From IMG/VR virus record IMGVR_UViG_3300031758_000021, positions 1 to 64,000 of that record: a DNA stretch of 64,000 bases; one strand, written 5' to 3'. This stretch comes from a virus. Below the pieces are notes generated by a model. That model was not told the DNA's origin and did not search any database. It saw only the letters and a program-made list of their open reading frames with translations. Within the stretch, counting starts at the first letter, position 1. Every line of letters begins with the position of its first letter. Of this stretch, positions 4,801-61,127 are shown one piece after another. The position numbers were made by a program, and so were the translations under genes.

Positions 4801-5904
4801 ATGCTAAAAATCGACGCAAAAAGAATCTGGCTAATATCCGATACACACTTAGGAGTTAGAACAAATTCTCGAGAGTGGATGGATACGATTGAAGATTACT
4901 TCATGAATCATTTTATCCCTACTCTAAAACGAGAATACCAACCCGGAGATGTTCTTATACATTGCGGCGACGTATTCGACTCAAGACAGTCAATTAATCT
5001 GTATGTTTTAAACAAAGGTATGGCAATCTTTGAGGAGATTACAAAAATCATGCCCGTTTATATGATCATCGGTAATCATGACATATTCATGAAGTACTCT
5101 AATGAAATTAATTCGTTAAAAGTATTCAAGCACATGTCAGATATTCATATTTATGAAAAACCTACAGTAGTTCAACTTGGACCTCGTAAAGCACTATTCA
5201 TGCCGTGGGTTGATAGCCCTGAAGAATTTGCTGAAATTGTAACAGATCCTGCATATCATGCAGAGATTATGTTTTGTCACACTGACATTAAAGGAATGTC
5301 TTTCAATAAATTTGTAAAAATTGAAGAAGGTAGTGATCCTGACCGCTTTGCGCACTTTCATCGAGTTTATTCTGGACATATACATTATGCACAGAAATAC
5401 AAAAACGTAAGAATGCTTGGGTGCCCTTATGAATTAACTCGTTCTGATAGTGGAAATACCAAATCTATTTGGAGACTTGATTTGGAATCTGATGAAGAAG
5501 TTAGTTTCCAAAATAATCATTCACCAAAATTTGTTAAGTTTAAATTGGATTGGGTTTTAGAGCAGCCTATCGGAAAACTTCAAAAACTATTTGAGAACAA
5601 TTATGTAGATGTAATGGTAACACCTCAGTGGTCCTTAAAGTTTCCTTTTGGTATATTTGCTGACAAGTTCACAGGGTACCGTAAAATTAACCCTATCATA
5701 ACCTCAGGTGATGATGATGTTACCACAGAGGACGGAGAGATCATTGACGCATATGAAGAGATTAACTTATCTAGACTTATAGATAAACATATTGAATCTT
5801 TACCGTATTCAGAAAATATCAAACAATCATTAAAAAATGTAAGTTCGAGACTTTATCAAGAGACTCTTAAAGAACTTGAAGAAAAGCGTTCATATGAAGA
5901 TTAA
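4801..5904 (+). CDS. 47: gp47-like recombination endonuclease subunit (SbcD/Mre11)
   Basis: Metallophosphoesterase subunit of the gp46/gp47 complex, which resects DNA ends for recombination. All the calcineurin-type motifs are visible in order: S-D-T-H-L-G (about residues 13-18), H-C-G-D-V-F-D (about 57-63), G-N-H-D (about 99-102), C-H-T-D (about 159-162) and S-G-H-I-H (about 194-198). 367 aa against 339 in T4 gp47. The last 11 nt overlap the start of gp46, the usual pairing of this complex. Confidence 0.94.
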   Translation: MLKIDAKRIWLISDTHLGVRTNSREWMDTIEDYFMNHFIPTLKREYQPGDVLIHCGDVFDSRQSINLYVLNKGMAIFEEITKIMPVYMIIGNHDIFMKYSNEINSLKVFKHMSDIHIYEKPTVVQLGPRKALFMPWVDSPEEFAEIVTDPAYHAEIMFCHTDIKGMSFNKFVKIEEGSDPDRFAHFHRVYSGHIHYAQKYKNVRMLGCPYELTRSDSGNTKSIWRLDLESDEEVSFQNNHSPKFVKFKLDWVLEQPIGKLQKLFENNYVDVMVTPQWSLKFPFGIFADKFTGYRKINPIITSGDDDVTTEDGEIIDAYEEINLSRLIDKHIESLPYSENIKQSLKNVSSRLYQETLKELEEKRSYED

Positions 5905-7570
5905 AAGTATAACCTGGAGTAATTTTGGAAGTTACGGAAATAAACCACAAGAAATTGTGTTTGATGAAAACCAAGGAAACTTCTATCTTATAGTTGGAAG
6001 TAACGGGGCAGGAAAGTCAACAATATCTGATGTAATCAAATTTGGATTATACGGTAGAGTTGATAATAAAAAGATGGGTGATCTTCCCAATCGGTTTAAC
6101 GGAAATATGAAAGTTAAGATTGTAATTGAGAAAACACCTGGAACTATTGCTACGATTGAACGTGGACTTAAACCTGGAATTTTTAAACTCTCAATTAATG
6201 GAGTTGAATATGACCAAGCTGGAAAGAAAAATGTACAAGAATACATAGAGGAAGAAATCTTAGGAATCCCCTTTTATGTTTTTAATAATATGATTTCATT
6301 GTCAATTAATGACTTTAAGAGTTTCATCAGTATGGGTGTAAACGATAAACGTCAAATCATTGACCGTCTATTTGGATTGGAAATCATCGGGCGTATCCGT
6401 TGGAAAGTTAAAATGAAATTGAAGATGCTTAAAGACTATCTTGATAACGTTTCCACGGAAATCGCCGTACTGGAAAGAAGTATACAAGATACCAACGCGG
6501 AACTTACTAGTTTAAATGAAAAACTTATTACAGTAGGTGAAGAAAGGCGTTCGGAACTTCAAACCAAAATTTTACAATTCCAAGAGTTCATTAAAAAAGC
6601 AGCGGATAGATTATTAGAAATCTCCACAAAAGAAAAAGAAGTACAGAATGTTTTAAATACTCTATCAAGTAAAATGGACGAACACCGTACTGATGAAAGA
6701 ATTTGTACACAAAAGATCCATTTATTTGAAAGCGGTAAATGTCCTACTTGTGAAACTGATTTAACCGATGATCATCACAAAAGTATGTTACAGGATTTTC
6801 TTGAAAAGAATGATGCTACTAAACAACTGATGGCAGAGATTAAAACCAAGCAAGATGAATTAACTGAAAAGAAAACTAAAATTCGTACAATGTATTCTGA
6901 AGTGAATGGCAAAAAGACAGCCGCTGAAGTTCAGATTTCTACATTACGTAATGAATTAGCAAAATTAAGTAATGGTAATGTTGATGATGCGCAAACACAA
7001 TCTTTAGAAAAACTTATTAAAGATACTGGTGAAAAGAAACAATCTGCTTTAGTTAAAAAGAGTGAAGAAGAAAAGAAAGGTAACTTCTTTAAAATCGTTG
7101 AAGATATCTTTGGAGACAGGGGCGTAAAACTATCTGCTCTAAAAAGAATTGTTCCATTATTAAATGCTGAAATTCGAAAAGTAATGGCTGATCTTAACAT
7201 GGATTATCGTGTAACCTTTAATGAAGAATTTGATGTTGACATACAACATTTAGGATTTAAGATTTCTCCAGAACAGCTAAGTACAGGTGAAAGAAAGAAA
7301 ATTGATTTTGCTACACTAATTGCGTTAATCCGTTTAATGAAGATTCGTTTTGCTGGGCTTAACCTTACTTTTCTTGATGAAATCTTTTCATCTATTGATT
7401 CTGATGGAATTTATCATATCTTAAAAGTACTTCATAAAACTTGTAGGGAATTAAACTTAAACATATTTGTTATTAATCATAGTCAATTACCAACCGAGAT
7501 TTTTGATTATCGCTTAGAAATTCAAAAGAACAATGGTTTTTCCCACTTATTGGTTGAAAAAATTGGATGA
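5894..7570 (+). CDS. 46: gp46-like recombination endonuclease subunit (SbcC/Rad50)
   Basis: SMC-type ATPase partner of gp47. Walker A G-S-N-G-A-G-K-S-T (about residues 36-44) at the N-terminus, a Cys-Pro-Thr-Cys zinc hook (about 283-286) flanked by two coiled-coil arms, then the ABC signature L-S-T-G-E-R-K and Walker B L-T-F-L-D-E near the C-terminus. The start at 5894 (MKIKSITW) is preferred over 5876 because it gives the canonical N-terminal strand and 558 aa, almost exactly the 560 aa of T4 gp46. It ends 10 nt before the tail-terminator gene, where the late, structural block begins. Confidence 0.95.
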   Translation: MKIKSITWSNFGSYGNKPQEIVFDENQGNFYLIVGSNGAGKSTISDVIKFGLYGRVDNKKMGDLPNRFNGNMKVKIVIEKTPGTIATIERGLKPGIFKLSINGVEYDQAGKKNVQEYIEEEILGIPFYVFNNMISLSINDFKSFISMGVNDKRQIIDRLFGLEIIGRIRWKVKMKLKMLKDYLDNVSTEIAVLERSIQDTNAELTSLNEKLITVGEERRSELQTKILQFQEFIKKAADRLLEISTKEKEVQNVLNTLSSKMDEHRTDERICTQKIHLFESGKCPTCETDLTDDHHKSMLQDFLEKNDATKQLMAEIKTKQDELTEKKTKIRTMYSEVNGKKTAAEVQISTLRNELAKLSNGNVDDAQTQSLEKLIKDTGEKKQSALVKKSEEEKKGNFFKIVEDIFGDRGVKLSALKRIVPLLNAEIRKVMADLNMDYRVTFNEEFDVDIQHLGFKISPEQLSTGERKKIDFATLIALIRLMKIRFAGLNLTFLDEIFSSIDSDGIYHILKVLHKTCRELNLNIFVINHSQLPTEIFDYRLEIQKNNGFSHLLVEKIG

Positions 7571-16960: not shown

Positions 16961-16992
16961 TTTGCCATTGTGAAAACAATTGGTTAATTTTA
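16961..16992 (+). promoter_or_regulatory. Bacteroidota-type promoter of the NAD+ island
   Basis: TTTG at 16961-16964, 20 nt, then TAATTTTA at 16985-16992, close to the TTTG / TAnnTTTG consensus. Predicted start lies about 14 nt before the ATG at 17013. Confidence 0.75.
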
Positions 16993-17012
16993 ACTATCTA
17001 AATAAAAATAAT

Positions 17013-17915
17013 ATGAACATACTTAATTTAGCAGATTCTACAAAATCCGAAATTGGATTTAAAATCTCAAGCTTTCCTGACGGTCAACAATCTATTACGA
17101 TTGAGCCAAGTGGGTATTCTTTTAATAACAAAATCAAATCAGTTCAAATCAAATCAAGATTAAACTCATTTCGTGATTTGGAATTAATCATTTGTGCAAA
17201 CCAAGCATTACTTGAACTTGGTGCAAAATCTGTTAGTCTGTATGTTCCGTATTTCTTAGGTGCAAGATCTGATAGAAAATTCTTAATAGGTTCTACAAAT
17301 TACCTTAAGACTGTTATTTGCCCAATCATTAACTCTCAGAATTTTTCAGAGGTGCATGTATTGGATCCTCATTCCGATGTTCTTGAAGCATGTTTAAATA
17401 ACTTCAAGAAAACTGATAACACAGGGTTAGTTAAGTTTGCTTTAACCAAGATTGATAATAAAAACGGCGCTCGAGAAACCTTACATCTTGTTTCTCCTGA
17501 TGCTGGTGCATTAAAGAAAATTTATCATGTGGCTGAAACATTCAGTATTGATAAAATTATTGTGGCAAATAAGCACCGTGATGTTAAAACCGGTAAGATT
17601 ACTCATACTGAAATACCACAAAGTAATTACGGAGCAGGTCCACAAAACTTTGTTATTGTTGATGATATTTGTGATGGCGGTAGAACCTTTATTGAATTAG
17701 CAAAAGCAATTCGTGAAATCCGACCACAAGAAATATTTAATGATACTATAACATTAGTAATCACACACGGTATCTTTTCAAGCGGTCTAAAGGAACTAAA
17801 CAAATTGTTTGATGCAATTTACACAACTAATTCAATCCGTCCTGAAAATGATTCAGAGTTTTCAATCCAAAACGATAATGAATTACATAAACTTAACGTT
17901 TATAACGTATTCTAA
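17013..17915 (+). CDS. PRPP synthetase-like pyrophosphokinase, candidate ADPR-PP synthetase (Adps)
   Basis: Type I PRPP-synthetase fold, 300 aa. Visible are Y-F-L-G-A-R-S-D-R-K (about residues 79-88, like the Y-F-G-Y-A-R-Q-D-R of Prs), L-D-P-H-S-D (about 117-122, metal/ATP site), V-S-P-D-A-G-A (about 158) and the PRPP-binding loop V-D-D-I-C-D-G-G-R-T (about 216-225). Ordinary Prs pyrophosphorylates ribose-5-phosphate. In the NARP1 pathway a phage homologue (Adps) acts on ADP-ribose, and its partner Namat, a Nampt homologue, makes NAD+ from the product plus nicotinamide. A Nampt homologue lies 1.2 kb downstream, so Adps is the favoured reading; sequence alone cannot tell the two substrates apart. 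True start is the ATG at 17013; 16980 is a TTG within the promoter. TAATG overlap with the macro gene. Confidence 0.8.
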   Translation: MNILNLADSTKSEIGFKISSFPDGQQSITIEPSGYSFNNKIKSVQIKSRLNSFRDLELIICANQALLELGAKSVSLYVPYFLGARSDRKFLIGSTNYLKTVICPIINSQNFSEVHVLDPHSDVLEACLNNFKKTDNTGLVKFALTKIDNKNGARETLHLVSPDAGALKKIYHVAETFSIDKIIVANKHRDVKTGKITHTEIPQSNYGAGPQNFVIVDDICDGGRTFIELAKAIREIRPQEIFNDTITLVITHGIFSSGLKELNKLFDAIYTTNSIRPENDSEFSIQNDNELHKLNVYNVF

Positions 17916-18556
17916 TGGCTATAGGTATTGGACTCCACTGTTGGTATTGTGAACACGGTCCTTGTAATGGTGAATGTAAAATAGATCCATGCCAAGAATC
18001 GCCAATCACTAATGTATTAGAAGAAGCAAAACTAAAAGCAAGATATTCTGAAGTTACCGGTGATCTTATAGCCTTAGCTAAAGAAGGTGCTTTTAATGTA
18101 ATTGTTCATGGCTGTAATTGTCATTCAACTATGGCAGCTGGTATTGCTCCACATATGGCTCAAGCTTTTGGCTGTGATAAATTTAACTTAGAACTTAAAG
18201 GTCCAAGCATAAACAAATTAGGTTGCATTGACTATGAAACCTTTGTAATATCTAAAGGTGGTCTATGGAATCGCAAATTGGATTCTAACATTAACAATGA
18301 TCCTGAATTAACTGTTGTGAATGCCTATACACAATATCGTTATGGCAAGAATCATATAGACGGCGTTTCCAAACCCGTGGATTATGAAGCAATCACAATC
18401 GTAATGAGAAAACTAAATGTTGAGTTTAAAGGACTTCATATAGGTCTTCCTAAAATTGGCGCTGGTCTTGCTGGTGGCGATTGGGAAAGAATCAAAAAAA
18501 TTATTCAAACAGAATTAATTGATTGTAAAGTAACAATCGTAATCTTACCACAATAA
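17915..18556 (+). CDS. Macro-domain protein (ADP-ribose binding or hydrolysing)
   Basis: Macro domains bind ADP-ribose and often hydrolyse ADP-ribosyl esters, ADP-ribose-1''-phosphate or related products. Core from residue ~40: S-E-V-T-G-D-L (the adenine-binding V-x-G-D-I/L), V-H-G-C-N-C-H (about 64-70, the N-A-A-N-like ribose loop), A-G-I-A-P, and G-L-P-K-I-G-A-G-L-A-G-G-D-W (about 178-191, phosphate loop of the TARG1/Poa1 type). An N-terminal extension has a Cys-rich cluster (H-C-W-Y-C-x(4)-C-x(3)-C, residues 8-20) that may bind metal. Coupled by TAATG to genes on both sides, so it belongs to the same NAD+/ADP-ribose operon. Confidence 0.88.
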   Translation: MAIGIGLHCWYCEHGPCNGECKIDPCQESPITNVLEEAKLKARYSEVTGDLIALAKEGAFNVIVHGCNCHSTMAAGIAPHMAQAFGCDKFNLELKGPSINKLGCIDYETFVISKGGLWNRKLDSNINNDPELTVVNAYTQYRYGKNHIDGVSKPVDYEAITIVMRKLNVEFKGLHIGLPKIGAGLAGGDWERIKKIIQTELIDCKVTIVILPQ

Positions 18557-19029
18557 TGAAAACCACAAATAAATACGTATTCTTCTGGAGTGGTATTTAC
18601 TCTCAATGGCATAAAGCAAATATGACTATTGACGGTATCACTTACAATTCATGTGAACAATACATGATGCACCAAAAAGCCTTAACATTTGGTGATACGG
18701 AAATTGCTAAACTTATCATGGAAGAATCTAATCCAAGAGAGCAAAAGAAATATGGCCGTATGATTAAAAACTTTGACAAAAGTGTTTGGGATAAAGTTTG
18801 CCTAAGCATTGTAATCAAAGGAAACTATTTTAAGTTTAAACAAAATCCTGATCTTAAAGCTGCATTAATGCTTACAGGTAAAAGAATCATGGTTGAGGCA
18901 TCACCACTTGATAATATCTGGGGTATAGGAATGGCTGAAGACGATCCTAATGTTGAGTATCCAATGTGTTGGAAAGGTCTTAATCTTTTAGGCCAAGCAA
19001 TTACAATAGTTAAACAAGAACTTTTATAA
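18556..19029 (+). CDS. NADAR/YbiA-family N-glycosidase
   Basis: NADAR proteins act on N-glycosidic bonds of ADP-ribose derivatives; characterised members include YbiA, acting on riboflavin intermediates, and enzymes that remove ADP-ribose from guanine in DNA. 157 aa, full length for the family. Motifs: F-F-W-S-G near the start, C-E-Q-Y-M-M-H-Q-K-A (about residues 33-42), and E-A-S-P-L-D-N-I-W-G-I-G-M (about 115-127), which is the family signature. Joined to the macro gene by TAATG. In this setting it may repair ADP-ribosylated nucleic acid or process an ADP-ribose derivative; the substrate is unknown. Confidence 0.88.
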   Translation: MKTTNKYVFFWSGIYSQWHKANMTIDGITYNSCEQYMMHQKALTFGDTEIAKLIMEESNPREQKKYGRMIKNFDKSVWDKVCLSIVIKGNYFKFKQNPDLKAALMLTGKRIMVEASPLDNIWGIGMAEDDPNVEYPMCWKGLNLLGQAITIVKQELL

Positions 19030-19042
19030 TTGTTAATAACTT
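19028..19042. promoter_or_regulatory. Palindromic element of composite early promoter
   Basis: AATTGTTAATAACTT, ending 12 nt before TTTG at 19055. It overlaps the stop codon of the NADAR gene. Confidence 0.55.
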
Positions 19043-19054
19043 CGCACCAAAATA

Positions 19055-19086
19055 TTTGCTTAGTATCTTTATTTTGGTTAATTTTA
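19055..19086 (+). promoter_or_regulatory. Bacteroidota-type promoter before Nampt-like gene
   Basis: TTTG at 19055-19058, 20 nt, TAATTTTA at 19079-19086; 27 nt of leader region before the ATG at 19114. It gives the Nampt-like gene its own promoter within the island. Confidence 0.75.
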
Positions 19087-19113
19087 ACTATTAATTTAAA
19101 ACAAATATAAATT

Positions 19114-20631
19114 ATGTTATCTAAATTACAAAAGACTTTTAGAGCACCTGCTCCTTATTATTCTGACGGATATAAAGTTGGTCATAAAAGAATGCTTGCC
19201 CCAGGCACGGATTTCTTATACGGAACTTGGATCCCAAGAAGTACAAAACATGCACCAAAAGGAATTGACAAAATTCTTTCCATTGGTCATCAATTAACTG
19301 TTCGTTGGTTACATGCTGAATGGCAAGAGAATTTCTTTAGCATGCCACGAGAAACTGCAACCAAATTTGGAACTGACATGGCAAAATACTTAGGTATGCC
19401 ATACGATGCTTCGCACTTTGAAGCACTACACGATTTAGGATACTTGCCTATTAAAATCAAAGCCTTACCTGAAGGAATTGAGACCGATGCAAATATTCCT
19501 CATATGACTTTCATTAACACTGTACCTGGCTTTGCTTGGTTAACATTATATCTTGAAACTATTATCTCATCTTTAGCTTGGAAACCAGCTACTTCTGCAA
19601 CTATTGCATTACAGTATAAAAGAAACCTTGTAAAATGGGTAACTAAAACTGACCCTGAAAATGCTTGGTTAATTCCTTACTTATGCCATGATTTCTCAGC
19701 TCGTGGATTATCTCCTTGGGATAGTTTATCTTCTGGTCTTGGACACGCCTTTTCTTTTATGGGTTCTGACTCAATCGTGGTCATTCCAGCTGCCCGTTAT
19801 TTCTATGATGAATCTGAGGATGAAGTTTGCATAGCTTCAGTAAATGCTTCTGAGCACTCTGTCTCAACTACCAAAATTTTTACCGTAGGTGAGCAACAAA
19901 TGATATCCGATTGGTTAACAGAATTTGATAAAGGAATCCTTTCTATCGTAGCGGATACCTTTGACCTATGGAAATTAATTACTGAGTATTTACCAGCAAA
20001 CAAAGATCAAATCATGTCACGTGATGGTAAACTTGTAATTCGTCCTGACTCTGGTGACCCAGTAGATATCATCTGTGGTAAAAGCTGGAATGCTGAACAA
20101 AATCCATACGATGAAAACGTGGATTCCGCTGAAAAAGGAGTAATTGAATTACTTTGGGATATCTTTGGCGGTACTATTAATGCTCAAGGTTACAAAGTAT
20201 TAGACCCACATATTGGAGCAATCTATGGAGATTCAATTACACTTGACCGTCAAATTGAAATCTATACAAGATTAGAAGCTAAAGGATTTGCTTCAACTAA
20301 TATTGTTTTAGGTGTAGGTTCATTTACATACCAATTCACTACACGTGATACTTTTGGGTACGCTGCAAAAGGTGCTTGGTTTGAGAATAACGGAAAAGGG
20401 ATTGACATCTATAAAGAACCAATAACTGATGATGGTACTAAAAAATCATTAAAAGGTAAATGTGCTGTGATTGAAGAAAACGGTGTATACACTGTAAAAA
20501 CACAATGTTCTGCTGAAGAAGAGAACACGGGAGTATTACAAACAATATATGAAAACGGAAACTTCTATAACCAAACTACTTTGACTGCAATCAGAGCTAA
20601 AATAATGGAATTGACTAATGCAAGTAATTAA
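19114..20631 (+). CDS. Nicotinamide phosphoribosyltransferase-like enzyme, candidate Namat
   Basis: 505 aa, full length for the Nampt family (human 491). Motifs: Y-S-D-G-Y-K-V-G-H-K (about residues 16-25), D-F-S-A-R-G (about 194-199), G-H-A-F-S-F-M-G-S-D (about 210-219), A-S-E-H-S-V with the catalytic-type His at residue 248 (human His247), S-I-V-A-D-T-F-D-L-W (about 279-288), and I-R-P-D-S-G-D-P with Arg310 and Asp312 (human Arg311, Asp313). Ordinary Nampt makes NMN from nicotinamide and PRPP; the phage homologue Namat uses ADPR-PP and makes NAD+ directly. With the Prs/Adps-like gene upstream and no NMN adenylyltransferase in the window, Namat is favoured. Confidence 0.85.
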   Translation: MLSKLQKTFRAPAPYYSDGYKVGHKRMLAPGTDFLYGTWIPRSTKHAPKGIDKILSIGHQLTVRWLHAEWQENFFSMPRETATKFGTDMAKYLGMPYDASHFEALHDLGYLPIKIKALPEGIETDANIPHMTFINTVPGFAWLTLYLETIISSLAWKPATSATIALQYKRNLVKWVTKTDPENAWLIPYLCHDFSARGLSPWDSLSSGLGHAFSFMGSDSIVVIPAARYFYDESEDEVCIASVNASEHSVSTTKIFTVGEQQMISDWLTEFDKGILSIVADTFDLWKLITEYLPANKDQIMSRDGKLVIRPDSGDPVDIICGKSWNAEQNPYDENVDSAEKGVIELLWDIFGGTINAQGYKVLDPHIGAIYGDSITLDRQIEIYTRLEAKGFASTNIVLGVGSFTYQFTTRDTFGYAAKGAWFENNGKGIDIYKEPITDDGTKKSLKGKCAVIEENGVYTVKTQCSAEEENTGVLQTIYENGNFYNQTTLTAIRAKIMELTNASN

Positions 20632-21088
20632 ACCTACTAGCTCTAATCAATCCCAGGACAATTACCCTGGGATTTTTTTAGCTGGTTCCATAGATATGGG
20701 TTCGTCTGTTGATTGGCAGACAGAGGTACAGAATAAACTCGATGATTGTGAAGTAACATTCTTTAATCCTCGAAGAGATGAATGGGATTCTTCATGGGAA
20801 CAAAGAGCTACTAATCCAGAGTTTAATGGTCAAGTAAATTGGGAAATGGACAAATTGGAAGAAGCTGATATAATCTTTATGAACATCTTACCAGAATCTA
20901 AATCACCAATTACTTTATTGGAATTAGGATTACATGCTAATAGTAATAGACTAATAGTTTGCTGTCCGGACGGATTCTGGAGAAAAGGTAATGTTGAAAT
21001 AGTTTGTCATAGATTTAACGTTCCATTATTTAATGATTTTGAAACTGCGGTTGCTGCGTTAAGGTCAAGAATAAAACAATTAAAATAA
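20618..21088 (+). CDS. Nucleoside 2-deoxyribosyltransferase-like protein
   Basis: 156 aa. Matches the Nuc_deoxyri_tr2 type: an opening strand G-I-F-L-A-G-S-I (about residues 18-25), then F-F-N-P-R-R-D-E-W-D, W-E-M-D-K-L-E-E-A-D-I-I-F, S-P-I-T-L-L-E-L-G-L with the catalytic-type Glu, and a closing C-C-P-D-G-F-W-R-K-G-N-V. The fold cleaves or exchanges N-glycosidic bonds of nucleosides; members also act on other nucleotides. It overlaps the Nampt-like gene by 14 nt and ends the island. A strong terminator hairpin is embedded in codons 11-21; a later start would remove the first strand, so the long form is preferred. Confidence 0.8.
   Translation: MQVIKPTSSNQSQDNYPGIFLAGSIDMGSSVDWQTEVQNKLDDCEVTFFNPRRDEWDSSWEQRATNPEFNGQVNWEMDKLEEADIIFMNILPESKSPITLLELGLHANSNRLIVCCPDGFWRKGNVEIVCHRFNVPLFNDFETAVAALRSRIKQLK
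20649..20679 (+). terminator. Terminator hairpin embedded in a coding start
   Basis: AATCCCAGG (20649-20657) pairs perfectly with CCTGGGATT (20666-20674) and the stem runs into seven T (20673-20679). It is placed as expected for a terminator after the Nampt-like gene (stop at 20631) yet lies inside the next gene, so transcription of that gene must read through it. Confidence 0.75.
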
Positions 21089-21110: not shown

Positions 21111-21142
21111 TTTGCATATGTGAAAACTATTGGTTAATTTTA
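21111..21142 (+). promoter_or_regulatory. Bacteroidota-type promoter before RNase H gene
   Basis: TTTG at 21111-21114, 20 nt, TAATTTTA at 21135-21142, with 29 nt before the ATG. No good copy of the upstream palindrome is seen here. Confidence 0.7.
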
Positions 21143-21171
21143 CCATATAATAATAAACAACATATATTTAT

Positions 21172-22278
21172 ATGAATCTAATATTTGACGGGAATTACTT
21201 ATTCTACAAAACACTGTTTATCTTCGGTGGTTATTCAAATGGCAAAAGGCTACTTGATGATAAAAAAGATCAAGATATGTTCATGCGTAAAATCGCAACT
21301 GACATGTCACACGCTATCCGTAACTTCGGAAGTCCTGACAAAATAATCTTTACAATTGACGCAAGATCCTGGAGAAAGGAGGTTCTGATTGAAGACGGCG
21401 CATATAAAGGTACTCGTACCAAGGATGAATCTAAAATTAACTGGGACCAGTTTTATAAAATGATGAATGAGTTTGGTGAGATCCTAACCAAAAAAGGATT
21501 TATCGTTTCTCGTGAAGATCGCGCCGAAGGCGATGATCTTATGTATTTATGGGCAAATCATTTATTTCAACAAGGACAAGACAGTGTTATCATTACCGGT
21601 GACGGTGACTTAACACAATGTGTTCGCATGAACGAGAAAAACTTTGTCGTATGCTTTAATCCAAATTCTAAAAATCGTAAGATCGTTGCTCCTATTGGAT
21701 TTAAGGAATGGCTTAAAACCGAAAGCTATGATTTATTCGATGCTTCTACTTATATGGGAAGTAATAAGGATTTAATTGCAGATGCTATGCACGCTATTCC
21801 TGTTGAAGAAATAGATCCAGCATTTATGATTTTCTGTAAAGTAATTACTGGAGACGCTGGTGATGCAGTGCCACCTGTTTGGACATGGGACGCAAAAGGT
21901 AAAACATTTAGAGTTACCCCGGCCAAAGCAGAACGTATTTATGAAATCGTAAACCGTACTAAATTCATTGATGACATCTATCATTTACCTGAAAGAGCTA
22001 TGGAAGTTGCTAACGGAATTGCTTCAACTTGTAAACAGACTGTTGCCGCGGATGTTATTAAATCTCGTCTTGAGCGTAACATAACTCTAGTTTATCTTGA
22101 CGGCAGAGTTATTCCACAAGACATACAAGATAATTTCAAGATCTCATTTGAGAAACATAAAAATGATTCGTTGCCTGCAGCTAATTATGATATGACTCAT
22201 TTACTATCTGGAACCAACTATGTGAATGGACCTAAGATTGTGGTTGAGGCTGATATCTTCAAAGATTTTGGAATGTAA
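21172..22278 (+). CDS. rnh: T4-type RNase H, 5'-3' exonuclease (FEN family)
   Basis: Removes RNA primers during lagging-strand synthesis. Acidic residues of the 5'-nuclease fold appear in order: I-F-D-G-N-Y (residues 4-9), T-I-D-A-R-S-W-R (about 61-68), the Y-K-G-T-R helical-arch segment (about 78-82), A-E-G-D-D-L-M (about 118-124), T-G-D-G-D-L-T (about 140-146) and T-G-D-A-G-D-A-V (about 226-233). 368 aa against 305 in T4 Rnh. It is led by its own early-type promoter. Confidence 0.92.
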   Translation: MNLIFDGNYLFYKTLFIFGGYSNGKRLLDDKKDQDMFMRKIATDMSHAIRNFGSPDKIIFTIDARSWRKEVLIEDGAYKGTRTKDESKINWDQFYKMMNEFGEILTKKGFIVSREDRAEGDDLMYLWANHLFQQGQDSVIITGDGDLTQCVRMNEKNFVVCFNPNSKNRKIVAPIGFKEWLKTESYDLFDASTYMGSNKDLIADAMHAIPVEEIDPAFMIFCKVITGDAGDAVPPVWTWDAKGKTFRVTPAKAERIYEIVNRTKFIDDIYHLPERAMEVANGIASTCKQTVAADVIKSRLERNITLVYLDGRVIPQDIQDNFKISFEKHKNDSLPAANYDMTHLLSGTNYVNGPKIVVEADIFKDFGM

Positions 22279-60050: not shown

Positions 60051-61127
60051 ATGGAAAGGAAATTAGCTTCTTTGCAAATCATCAGTGATATCCAACCTAT
60101 TGAAGGTGCTGATGCGATTGAACTTGCAATCGTAAACGGATGGAAAGTTGTAGTGGCTAAAAATGTTGGGCACAAAATTGGCAACATGGTTGTTTATTGC
60201 GAGATTGACTCTTTCTTACCAGTTCGTGAAGAATTTGAGTTCTTAAGAAAAAGTTCTTTCAAGAAAATGGGTGGCCAAGAAGGGTTCAGATTAAAAACAA
60301 TTCGTTTAAGAGGACAGGTCTCTCAAGGACTTATTTTACCAATGAGTATCTTTGGTGATTTTGGTTGGACTGCATATGAAGGTCTTGACGTAACTGAAAG
60401 ATTAGGAATTGTTAAATATGAACCACCAATGCCTGCTCAACTTTCTGGAGTTGCCAAAGGATACTTCCCAAGCTTCATAAGAAAGACTGATGAGGAAAGA
60501 GTTCAAAACTTAGCAAAAGAATACGCTGAAATGAAAACCCGTACATACTACGTGACAGAAAAACTTGACGGTTCTTCTGCAACATATTACATGAAAGACG
60601 GTGAATTTGGAGTGTGCTCTCGTAATCTTGAACTAGCTGAACCTGAAGCATTCGTTGAAGGTATGGTAATGTGTGAGGATGGAATTGAAAGACCACGCCA
60701 GCAAAACACATTTTGGAAAGTTGCCCAAGAAATGAAAATTAAAGAAAAACTTGAAAAGGCGTGTAAAGAACTAGGACGTAACTTATCAATTCAAGGTGAA
60801 CTTATTGGTGAAGGTATTCAAGGAAATCCTTATAAACTTAAAGGACAAACTTTAAGACTGTATAATATCTTTGACATTGACAGTCAAGAATACTTTGGAT
60901 TACCGATGTTCTTAGCCGCCGCTGAACATACATTGGATTTGCCAGTGGTGCCTGTTCTTGATACACACTTTCATTTACCAGAGACTATTGATGAATTAAT
61001 CAAATATGCAGATGGTAAATCTGTTCTGCACGATAAGACAGATCGTGAAGGTGTGGTAATCCGTACTCTTGACCGTAAGTATTCTTTTAAAGCAATTAGT
61101 AACATCTTTCTTTTAGGAGAAAAGTAA
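60051..61127 (+). CDS. RNA ligase, DraRnl/Rnl5-like
   Basis: 358 aa. Nucleotidyltransferase motif I is E-K-L-D-G-S-S (Lys 171, the AMP acceptor), followed by motif III-like I-Q-G-E-L-I-G, motif IV D-R-E-G-V-V-I-R and motif V Y-S-F-K-A-I. About 160 residues precede motif I and resemble the N-terminal OB fold of the Deinococcus DraRnl family rather than T4 Rnl1 or Rnl2. Such ligases seal nicks in RNA or 3'-OH/5'-P ends and could reverse host RNA cleavage during defence. Confidence 0.85.
   Translation: MERKLASLQIISDIQPIEGADAIELAIVNGWKVVVAKNVGHKIGNMVVYCEIDSFLPVREEFEFLRKSSFKKMGGQEGFRLKTIRLRGQVSQGLILPMSIFGDFGWTAYEGLDVTERLGIVKYEPPMPAQLSGVAKGYFPSFIRKTDEERVQNLAKEYAEMKTRTYYVTEKLDGSSATYYMKDGEFGVCSRNLELAEPEAFVEGMVMCEDGIERPRQQNTFWKVAQEMKIKEKLEKACKELGRNLSIQGELIGEGIQGNPYKLKGQTLRLYNIFDIDSQEYFGLPMFLAAAEHTLDLPVVPVLDTHFHLPETIDELIKYADGKSVLHDKTDREGVVIRTLDRKYSFKAISNIFLLGEK

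Follow-up and report, generated by a model that had tools for sequence, protein, structure and literature searches.

A candidate extended NARP1 module in a virus: predicted ADP-ribose-releasing enzymes beside an NAD+-rebuilding pair

In the NARP1 route, ADP-ribose and ATP yield ADP-ribose pyrophosphate, which is joined to nicotinamide to give NAD+. A 64,000-nucleotide stretch of DNA from a bacterial virus (positions 1 to 64,000 of IMG/VR virus record IMGVR_UViG_3300031758_000021; hereafter the window, part of a 103,151-base record that is possibly itself a fragment) encodes candidates for the two enzymes of this route, Adps and Namat, together with a macro-domain protein, a NADAR-domain protein, and a protein resembling nucleoside deoxyribosyltransferases (NDT-like). 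What might these three additional enzymes, the extras, be doing beside the pair? We read the five-gene island, with a probability of roughly 0.6, as an extended NARP1 anti-defence module in which the extras would release ADP-ribose and Adps and Namat would rebuild NAD+. The pair is assigned to NARP1 from its sequence, and the extras are placed with it by comparative genomics in many viral lineages; the set of three accompanies the core pair in numerous other viruses and some bacteria.

The five genes and the core pair

Five consecutive plus-strand open reading frames (ORFs; program-made list) occupy positions 17013–21088 of the window. They encode Adps, the Prs-like ADP-ribose pyrophosphokinase of NARP1 (17013–17915; library matches and a 56-protein tree); a macro-domain protein of the TARG1/DarG/Poa1p kind (17915–18556; phrog_335 and an AlphaFold2 model); a NADAR-domain protein (18556–19029; PF08719 and conserved residues, with 8bau the nearest solved NADAR); Namat, the Nampt-like nicotinamide ADP-ribose transferase of NARP1 (19114–20631; NF006629 and a clamp motif); and an NDT-like PF15891 protein, a predicted riboside-phosphate N-glycosidase (20618–21088; Pfam, a model, and residues F20 and E102). 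A first-pass annotation, made from the sequence alone, had named five consecutive NAD+/ADP-ribose genes here, and the ORF list, the family matches, and the macro fold model agree with it.

The same annotation took gene 1 for Adps and gene 4 for Namat, and both assignments stand, the first on a tree and the second on a motif. Gene 1 matches phrog_619 at E 4e-66 and TIGR01251 at E 8e-24, the latter with 84 bits, under the cut-off of 113. In a tree of 56 Prs-like proteins it groups with NARP1-linked Adps, with five housekeeping PrsA proteins set apart at 100/100; the rows are named by their Nampt-like neighbour genes, so their "NARP1" labels rest on gene neighbourhood, with those of phages wV8, phi92, and Vetrix serving as proxies for the biochemically tested systems, which the tree did not contain.

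Gene 4 matches NF006629 at E 8e-130, and the solved structures closest to it are 9w5w and 9w5x (E about 1e-118), followed by 9ke8. Because the residues of 9w5x fit the D13, Y15, R40, F392, Y396, and D400 numbering of PMC12774641, we infer that it is that paper's SPbetaL1 Namat. The accessible text of the paper describes a selectivity-clamp helix signature for Namat, GSX-phi-X-phi-X-phi-TRD with aromatics at positions 3 and 7, and a clamp loop that carries Arg, or Lys/Tyr followed by a stacking residue. Gene 4 has the helix signature as GSFTYQFTTRD (residues 402–412; aromatic F404 and F408) and the loop in the paper's Lys form, with K45 then H46 at the place of SPbetaL1 R40 and with Lys or Arg at position 45 in 20 of 20 Namats. 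Its core residues F194, R197, D219, H248, R310, and D312 are each invariant in 20/20 aligned Namats and match F189, R192, D215, R306, D308, and the catalytic His of SPbetaL1, equivalences read off the alignment.

No nicotinamide mononucleotide (NMN) adenylyltransferase domain (PF01467) was found in the 103,151 bases of the possibly fragmentary record. We take the pair to be NARP1 and not NARP2 because of the clamp motif, the Adps tree, and this absence, with the caveat that a fragment may omit genes; on the motif and the absence we reject a NARP2 reading of the window. The first-pass annotation had named two findings that would point elsewhere, a grouping with ordinary Prs and Nampt and an NMN adenylyltransferase elsewhere in the genome. 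Neither appeared in the tree for the Prs-like protein, the motif for the Nampt-like one, or the record as recovered.

Co-occurrence in viruses and bacteria

Gene neighbourhoods were scanned around seed genes, with the best 80 or fewer loci kept per scan and a reach of about 8 kb. Loci were clustered at 90% (seed protein) or 95% (Namat); they overlap between scans, and one contig can stand under several locus (L) numbers. The complete five-gene set is present in 41 of 193 viral loci, which form 15 Namat clusters, always on one strand and in five orders; 10 of these 15 clusters keep the window's order, mostly with other genes between. Around Namat (78 loci), Prs/Adps is present in 71, macro in 22, NDT in 21, and NADAR in 16. 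With NADAR as the seed (22 clusters), a Nampt-like gene appears in 17 (all with the GS...TRD motif), Adps in 16, macro in 15, and NDT in 13, all four partners being present in 11 clusters and none in 4. The NDT-seeded count used 69 of 70 loci (L151, with no NDT ORF, was dropped) and yielded, over 50 clusters, Nampt/Namat in 28, Prs/Adps in 21, macro in 17, NADAR in 7, and an NMNAT-like gene in 5. Twelve of 16 macro-seeded loci hold a Nampt-like gene and one more only a Prs-like gene; 7 of the 16 are close kin of the window.

As a control we seeded the same scan with the thymidylate-synthase gene of the same phage: its 48 clusters contained no Nampt, NDT, NADAR, or macro gene, and Prs once (Fisher p = 4e-11 and 3e-12, with clusters treated as independent, which they are not fully). 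A whole-record control found Namat in 1 of 18 records (L308, the same contig as L095). Because of the conservation across viral loci and this control, the grouping of the five genes exceeds chance. Co-conservation of the extras, on which the first-pass annotation had staked its proposal, is thus seen in a minority of NARP1 loci against 0/48 in the control. In a tree of NDT-like proteins, those linked to NARP1 fall into at least two separate groups, and NARP2-linked and other Nampt-linked ones into further groups (bootstrap unsettled); NARP1 labels in this tree, too, were given by neighbourhood.

The NDT loci hold further features of their own. Ten of 67 encode a large SPFH/Band 7 protein; the L008 copy (5598–7493; PF01145, E 1.6e-28) lies between Namat and NDT, and relatives occur in L009, L010, L012, L016, L018, L020, L031, L064, and L089. 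Another group of loci (L129, L132, L136, L139, and L117) has NDT, Adps-like, and Nampt-like genes but yielded no Namat motif; in L129 and L132 its Nampt-like gene is split into two ORFs. In Tunturiibacter phage Tunturi_5 (L171, 5950–9738), an NDT-like match sits inside a 3.8-kb ORF annotated as MutT/NUDIX; since this ORF adjoins the portal gene, its product may be packaged in the virion.

Bacteria carry related clusters. When bacterial genomes were scanned with a Namat alignment, the best 80 loci, most of them from Bacteroidota, had Prs/Adps in 69, NADAR in 31, NDT in 28, macro in 15, and all five genes in 2. Among the recurrent neighbours, named from 20 scanned proteins of which four lacked a Pfam match, are a Nudix regulator whose winged helix is of the NrtR type, KptA, ADP-ribosylglycohydrolase (ARH; in one case as a fusion with NADAR), DUF4291, a metallophosphatase, and a 2-oxoglutarate oxygenase; bacterial operons also carry PARG beside ARH and KptA. 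Bacteroidota clusters L243 (with an ARH–NADAR fusion), L207, L231, and L191 join Adps, Namat, NDT-like, and NADAR genes to varying ARH, macro, KptA, DUF4291, and NrtR-type regulator genes, and the larger versions with the regulator, KptA, and ARH lie on flavobacterial chromosomes. Of 60 Flavobacteriaceae genomes, 4 have NDT, 8 have Namat, and 3 have both (p 0.006), the two genes lying within 7 kb of each other in those 3; the centre genome of this set, G048, was chosen for having the operon, and without it the remaining 59 give 3, 7, and 2 (p 0.035). The linkage thus receives weak support from this family.

KptA (PF01885) is absent from 34 of 34 viral records scanned, including G000. This rules out KptA as a phage source of ADP-ribose 1'',2''-cyclic phosphate; such a source fits the bacterial operons only, and these phages did not take the KptA part. 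The accessible text of PMC12774641 leaves the role of bacterial NARP1 open, for which the flavobacterial operon suggests a candidate: recycling of ADP-ribose from KptA, ARH, and NADAR reactions.

Predicted chemistry and competing explanations

Gene 2 had no Pfam or NCBIfam match at E 0.001 and matches phrog_335, labelled "phosphatase", at E 3e-39. Its AlphaFold2 model has a pLDDT confidence score of 83, poor over about residues 1–30, within a Cys-rich, low-confidence N-terminal extension of about residues 1–33. By its modelled fold it is a macro domain: the neighbours are 2fg1 (Z 17.6), TARG1 (17.4), DarG (17.1), and Poa1p (15.7), the absence of other families from such listings not being counted as evidence. 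The protein carries HGCN and GAGLAGG, which we take to be the ADP-ribose-binding loops. Gene 3 matches NADAR PF08719 at E 1.5e-48 (165.5 bits vs a cut-off of 35.1), and E34, K41, D119, and W122, presumably its catalytic residues, are invariant in 12/12 aligned proteins.

Gene 5 belongs to PF15891 (Nuc_deoxyri_tr2; E 1e-33), a family for which no function was found in the literature searched, where subscription journals are thinly covered. The best PDB match to its AlphaFold2 model (pLDDT 94) is 4mcj (Z 21.3, 46% identity), titled only a putative nucleoside deoxyribosyltransferase. YtoQ (Z 13.1), an Enterococcus protein (12.5), and a SPARTA TIR complex (10.4) follow, and MilB, NDT, and DNPH1 enzymes match at Z about 10–12. 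The fold of the NDT/DNPH1 superfamily and the catalytic Glu (E102) are both present, and the Ser-x5-Glu spacing is shared: S96–E102 corresponds to S98–E104 of DNPH1 and S97–E103 of MilB, with S96 at the place of the DNPH1 phosphate Ser. In contrast to all three enzymes, the gene 5 family has a CCPxxFxRxGN motif, invariant in 48 viral rows though not in bacterial relatives.

The residue that bears most on substrate is F20, which aligns with DNPH1 Y24, MilB F17, and NDT Y7 (an equivalence by offset from the first aligned residue pairs with the three structures, 15-19, 15-12, and 14-1). The Tyr that disfavours a 2'-OH (Y7 of NDT, Y24 of DNPH1), expected of nucleoside 2'-deoxyribosyltransferases, is replaced by Phe in gene 5. 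F20 and E102 are invariant in 48/48 aligned viral rows and S96 is Ser in 47/48. A wider set of 68 viral and 28 bacterial relatives shows Phe at the F20 position in 66 and 26, respectively, with the remaining four gapped there and Tyr in none; Glu occupies the E102 position in 94 of these 96. As far as the accessible texts go, Phe at that site fits ribose in MilB and F17Y reverts the preference (PMC10603095; also PMC4081090), and TIR NADases usually have Phe or Ala there (PMC11204291). Because F20, E102, and S96 are conserved and MilB F17 offers a precedent, we predict that gene 5 is a riboside-phosphate N-glycosidase whose substrate contains ribose. The name "deoxyribosyltransferase" given in the first-pass annotation is therefore probably not apt as to the deoxy sugar.

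The bonds cleaved by NADAR and by enzymes of the NDT-like fold are N-glycosidic. For macro domains, the accessible text of Iyer 2022 (PMC9503650) names groups attached at the 1'' or 2'' positions as the targets. In the extended NARP1 module, the three extras would act upstream as glycosidases or hydrolases of differing bond preference, NADAR and the NDT-like protein on N-glycosidic links to the distal ribose and the macro protein on groups held by O- or phosphate links; between them, the three would reach most known ADP-ribose linkages. Linear ADP-ribose would be freed from the forms that host defences make, whether cyclic, conjugated, or bound to macromolecules, a step that would both destroy immune signals or adducts and feed Adps. 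The extras would then work as RyDEP does beside NARP1 in mycobacteriophage DyoEdafos, with other enzymes; RyDEP is a glycosidase in a NARP1 operon that handles 2'cADPR and 3'cADPR (cyclic ADP-ribose forms) and whose product feeds Adps/Namat (PMC13232231, accessible text).

A bolder version, which we put forward tentatively and hold to be somewhat doubtful, makes the PF15891 enzyme a new class of phage immune-signal glycosidase that would cut the N-glycosidic bond of classic or N7-linked cyclic ADP-ribose and of His-linked ADP-ribose. With NADAR and macro it would turn NARP1 into a general ADP-ribose salvage, run also by Flavobacteria under an NrtR-type regulator. Nicotinamide might even replace the base by way of a covalent glycosyl-enzyme, in the manner of NDTs, giving ADP-ribose or directly NAD+.

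The main alternative, rather unlikely in our estimate, is that the extras chiefly undo ADP-ribosylation of DNA, RNA, or protein by DarT-, CmdT-, or KptA-like host toxins, with NARP1 restoring NAD+ separately and any ADP-ribose feed incidental. NADAR has direct support in the repair of ADP-ribosylated macromolecules (PMC11833690), the macro model lies closest to 2fg1, TARG1, and DarG, and bacterial operons include ARH, PARG, and KptA. However, the solved enzymes nearest the NDT-like fold act, by their structure titles, on small nucleosides or nucleotides, no ADP-ribosyltransferase appeared among the ten island and neighbouring proteins scanned, and Iyer 2022 (PMC9503650), in its accessible text, argues from context for soluble derivatives as the targets of phage Macro and NADAR proteins. 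Recycling of signals and debris and repair of macromolecules could also both hold.

Two further explanations fare worse. It is improbable that the extras serve metabolite repair, removing NAD analogues damaged or wrongly joined during forced NAD+ synthesis, and so accompany any phage NAD+ salvage, NARP1 or NARP2. NDT and macro genes do occur with Namat, with Nampt plus a NadM-like gene, or with an annotated NMN adenylyltransferase, and the Nampt of one isolate (L389) has the motif GGLMTADLDRDT, which is not a Namat motif; yet all 17 Nampt-like neighbours in the NADAR-seeded scan have GS...TRD, and no precedent for such a need was found, though no search was aimed at one. It is most improbable that gene 5 is a mere NARP1 neighbour, a deoxynucleotide N-hydrolase of nucleotide-pool control directed, for example, at the dITP signal through which Kongming depletes NAD+ (PMC12774641, accessible text). 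The Pfam name Nuc_deoxyri_tr2 and the DNPH1 and NDT structures among the fold matches would suit such an enzyme, but the Phe in 48/48 rows and 92/96 wider relatives, the residue that in MilB marks ribose use, and the co-occurrence with ADP-ribose enzymes in phages and bacteria argue against it.

Several observations weigh against the extended NARP1 module itself. The five-gene form is a minority among NARP1 loci, most of which lack the extras, and in 21 of 50 NDT clusters none of the partners lies within reach. The Phe argument is not absolute, because a Lactobacillus NDT with the Y7F/D72N changes was no better at using ribonucleosides (PMC11647913, accessible text). NDT also stands with Nampt and a NadM-like protein (identified by Pfam scan of one such protein) in 5 of 50 NDT clusters, 3 of these with macro, a context that counts here because free ADP-ribose is not a direct substrate there. 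Finally, with whole contigs counted, 13 of 50 NDT clusters still lack PF04095, and Lactobacillus phage 3-521 has NDT without it.

The case from solitary NDT genes is weakened, though not removed, since many carriers have a Nampt elsewhere. PF04095 was present elsewhere in 17 of 30 NDT records without a nearby Nampt, namely 9 of the 22 contigs and all 8 isolates; the other 13 contigs lack it and are possibly fragments. Five of six further NDT isolates have it, so that PF04095 or a Nampt-like gene is found in 37 of 50 viral NDT clusters and 13 of 14 isolates tested, these 14 being picked as distinct from 45 NDT-bearing phage records, the remainder mostly close relatives. NDT and Nampt lie about 6 to 40 kb apart in 7 of 8 isolates and far apart in Lak-C1. 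Among the phage records searched, Nampt occurs in 1,915 of 50,697 and NDT in 45; co-occurrence in large phages is less striking than the former figure suggests, because 22% of medium-sized and 33% of jumbo phages are reported to have NadV (Iyer 2022, PMC9503650, accessible text).

The NARP2-type contexts also change how the extras are to be read. In Sinorhizobium phage Phosso, NDT lies two genes from an annotated NMN adenylyltransferase, which, with the Nampt plus NadM-like clusters, rules out NDT as a gene of NARP1 only. The first-pass annotation's view of the extras as an extension of NARP1 thus holds for their co-conservation with it and fails as to exclusivity, since NDT and macro also accompany Nampt and NadM-like genes. 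The two are accordingly partners of phage NAD+ salvage in general, which argues that removal of signals or adducts, and not only the feeding of Adps, is part of the job. PF15891, a family without a function in the literature searched, can be named a frequent partner of phage NAD+ salvage, its chemistry predicted from one residue.

Gene units, the rest of the record, and known systems

Genes 1 and 2 and genes 2 and 3 overlap by one base each, and genes 4 and 5 by 14 bases. Exact plus-strand copies of a repeated 18-base element, TTGGTTAATTTTAACTAT, lie at 16980–16997, upstream of Adps–macro–NADAR, and at 19074–19091, upstream of Namat–NDT. From the overlaps and the shared upstream element, the five genes appear to fall into two tightly coupled units, a copy of this phage element preceding each. 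A TTG at 16980 is a possible alternative start for gene 1, but 16980–16997 is the element copy. A diverged plus-strand copy at 21130–21146 (3 mismatches in 17 bases) precedes the next gene, exonuclease-like, at 21172–22278.

At up to 3 mismatches the window has 6 matches to the element vs 0.38 expected, the copy at 21130–21146 not being among them; further positions are 53219, 61174, and 62657 of the window, with more copies up to 94214 of the record (L256, L257). The record has 18 plus-strand matches, and in 17 of them the next ATG, whether or not it starts a gene, follows 11–37 bases on. An ATTTGC block often stands upstream of the core. The element is probably a phage promoter or leader. 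A search for sigma-70-type promoters was uninformative (24 found vs 20.1 expected), as was one for PRA-PH, which had no match in the virus's own record.

Two RNA ligases, PF09414 with a PHA02142 OB-fold and PF09511, are encoded at window positions 60051–61127 and at L256 5698–6768; because both stand in the same record, RNA repair may matter to this phage too. Elsewhere in the record (L257 4175–4519 and 13990–14316) are a YAcAr SLOG protein and a DUF4326 protein, both counted among ADP-ribose-network domains in the accessible text of Iyer 2022 (PMC9503650).

NARP1, bacterial NARP1, and RyDEP are already in print; the five-gene set was not found in the literature searched, with the same thin coverage of subscription journals. 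The phage Macro/NADAR/SLOG neighbourhoods of Iyer 2022 (PMC9503650) share with the island a predicted division of labour among ADP-ribose-processing domains, and that paper notes NADAR beside NadM/NadV, near NAD+ salvage genes; unlike the island, its accessible text describes neither Adps/Namat chemistry nor a PF15891 gene. The RyDEP-containing NARP1 of DyoEdafos (PMC13232231, accessible text) is similar in that its NARP1 includes the gene of a glycosidase which converts cyclic ADP-ribose to ADP-ribose for Adps, a glycosidase role that is predicted here. It differs in that its RyR/R12 domain (PF02026) is absent from the ten island and neighbouring proteins scanned, three unrelated folds standing instead. 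With NARP1 as given in the accessible text of PMC12774641, the island shares both core enzymes and the GS...TRD clamp motif of Namat; the forms there have two genes, whereas the window adds three enzymes between and after the two. NARP1 was published as a two-enzyme cycle from free ADP-ribose. The recurrence of the five-gene form across 15 viral clusters suggests that ADP-ribose tied up in signals or adducts is recovered by phages as well, a larger pathway in which immune signals and debris would be turned back into NAD+ after the host's suicide defence.

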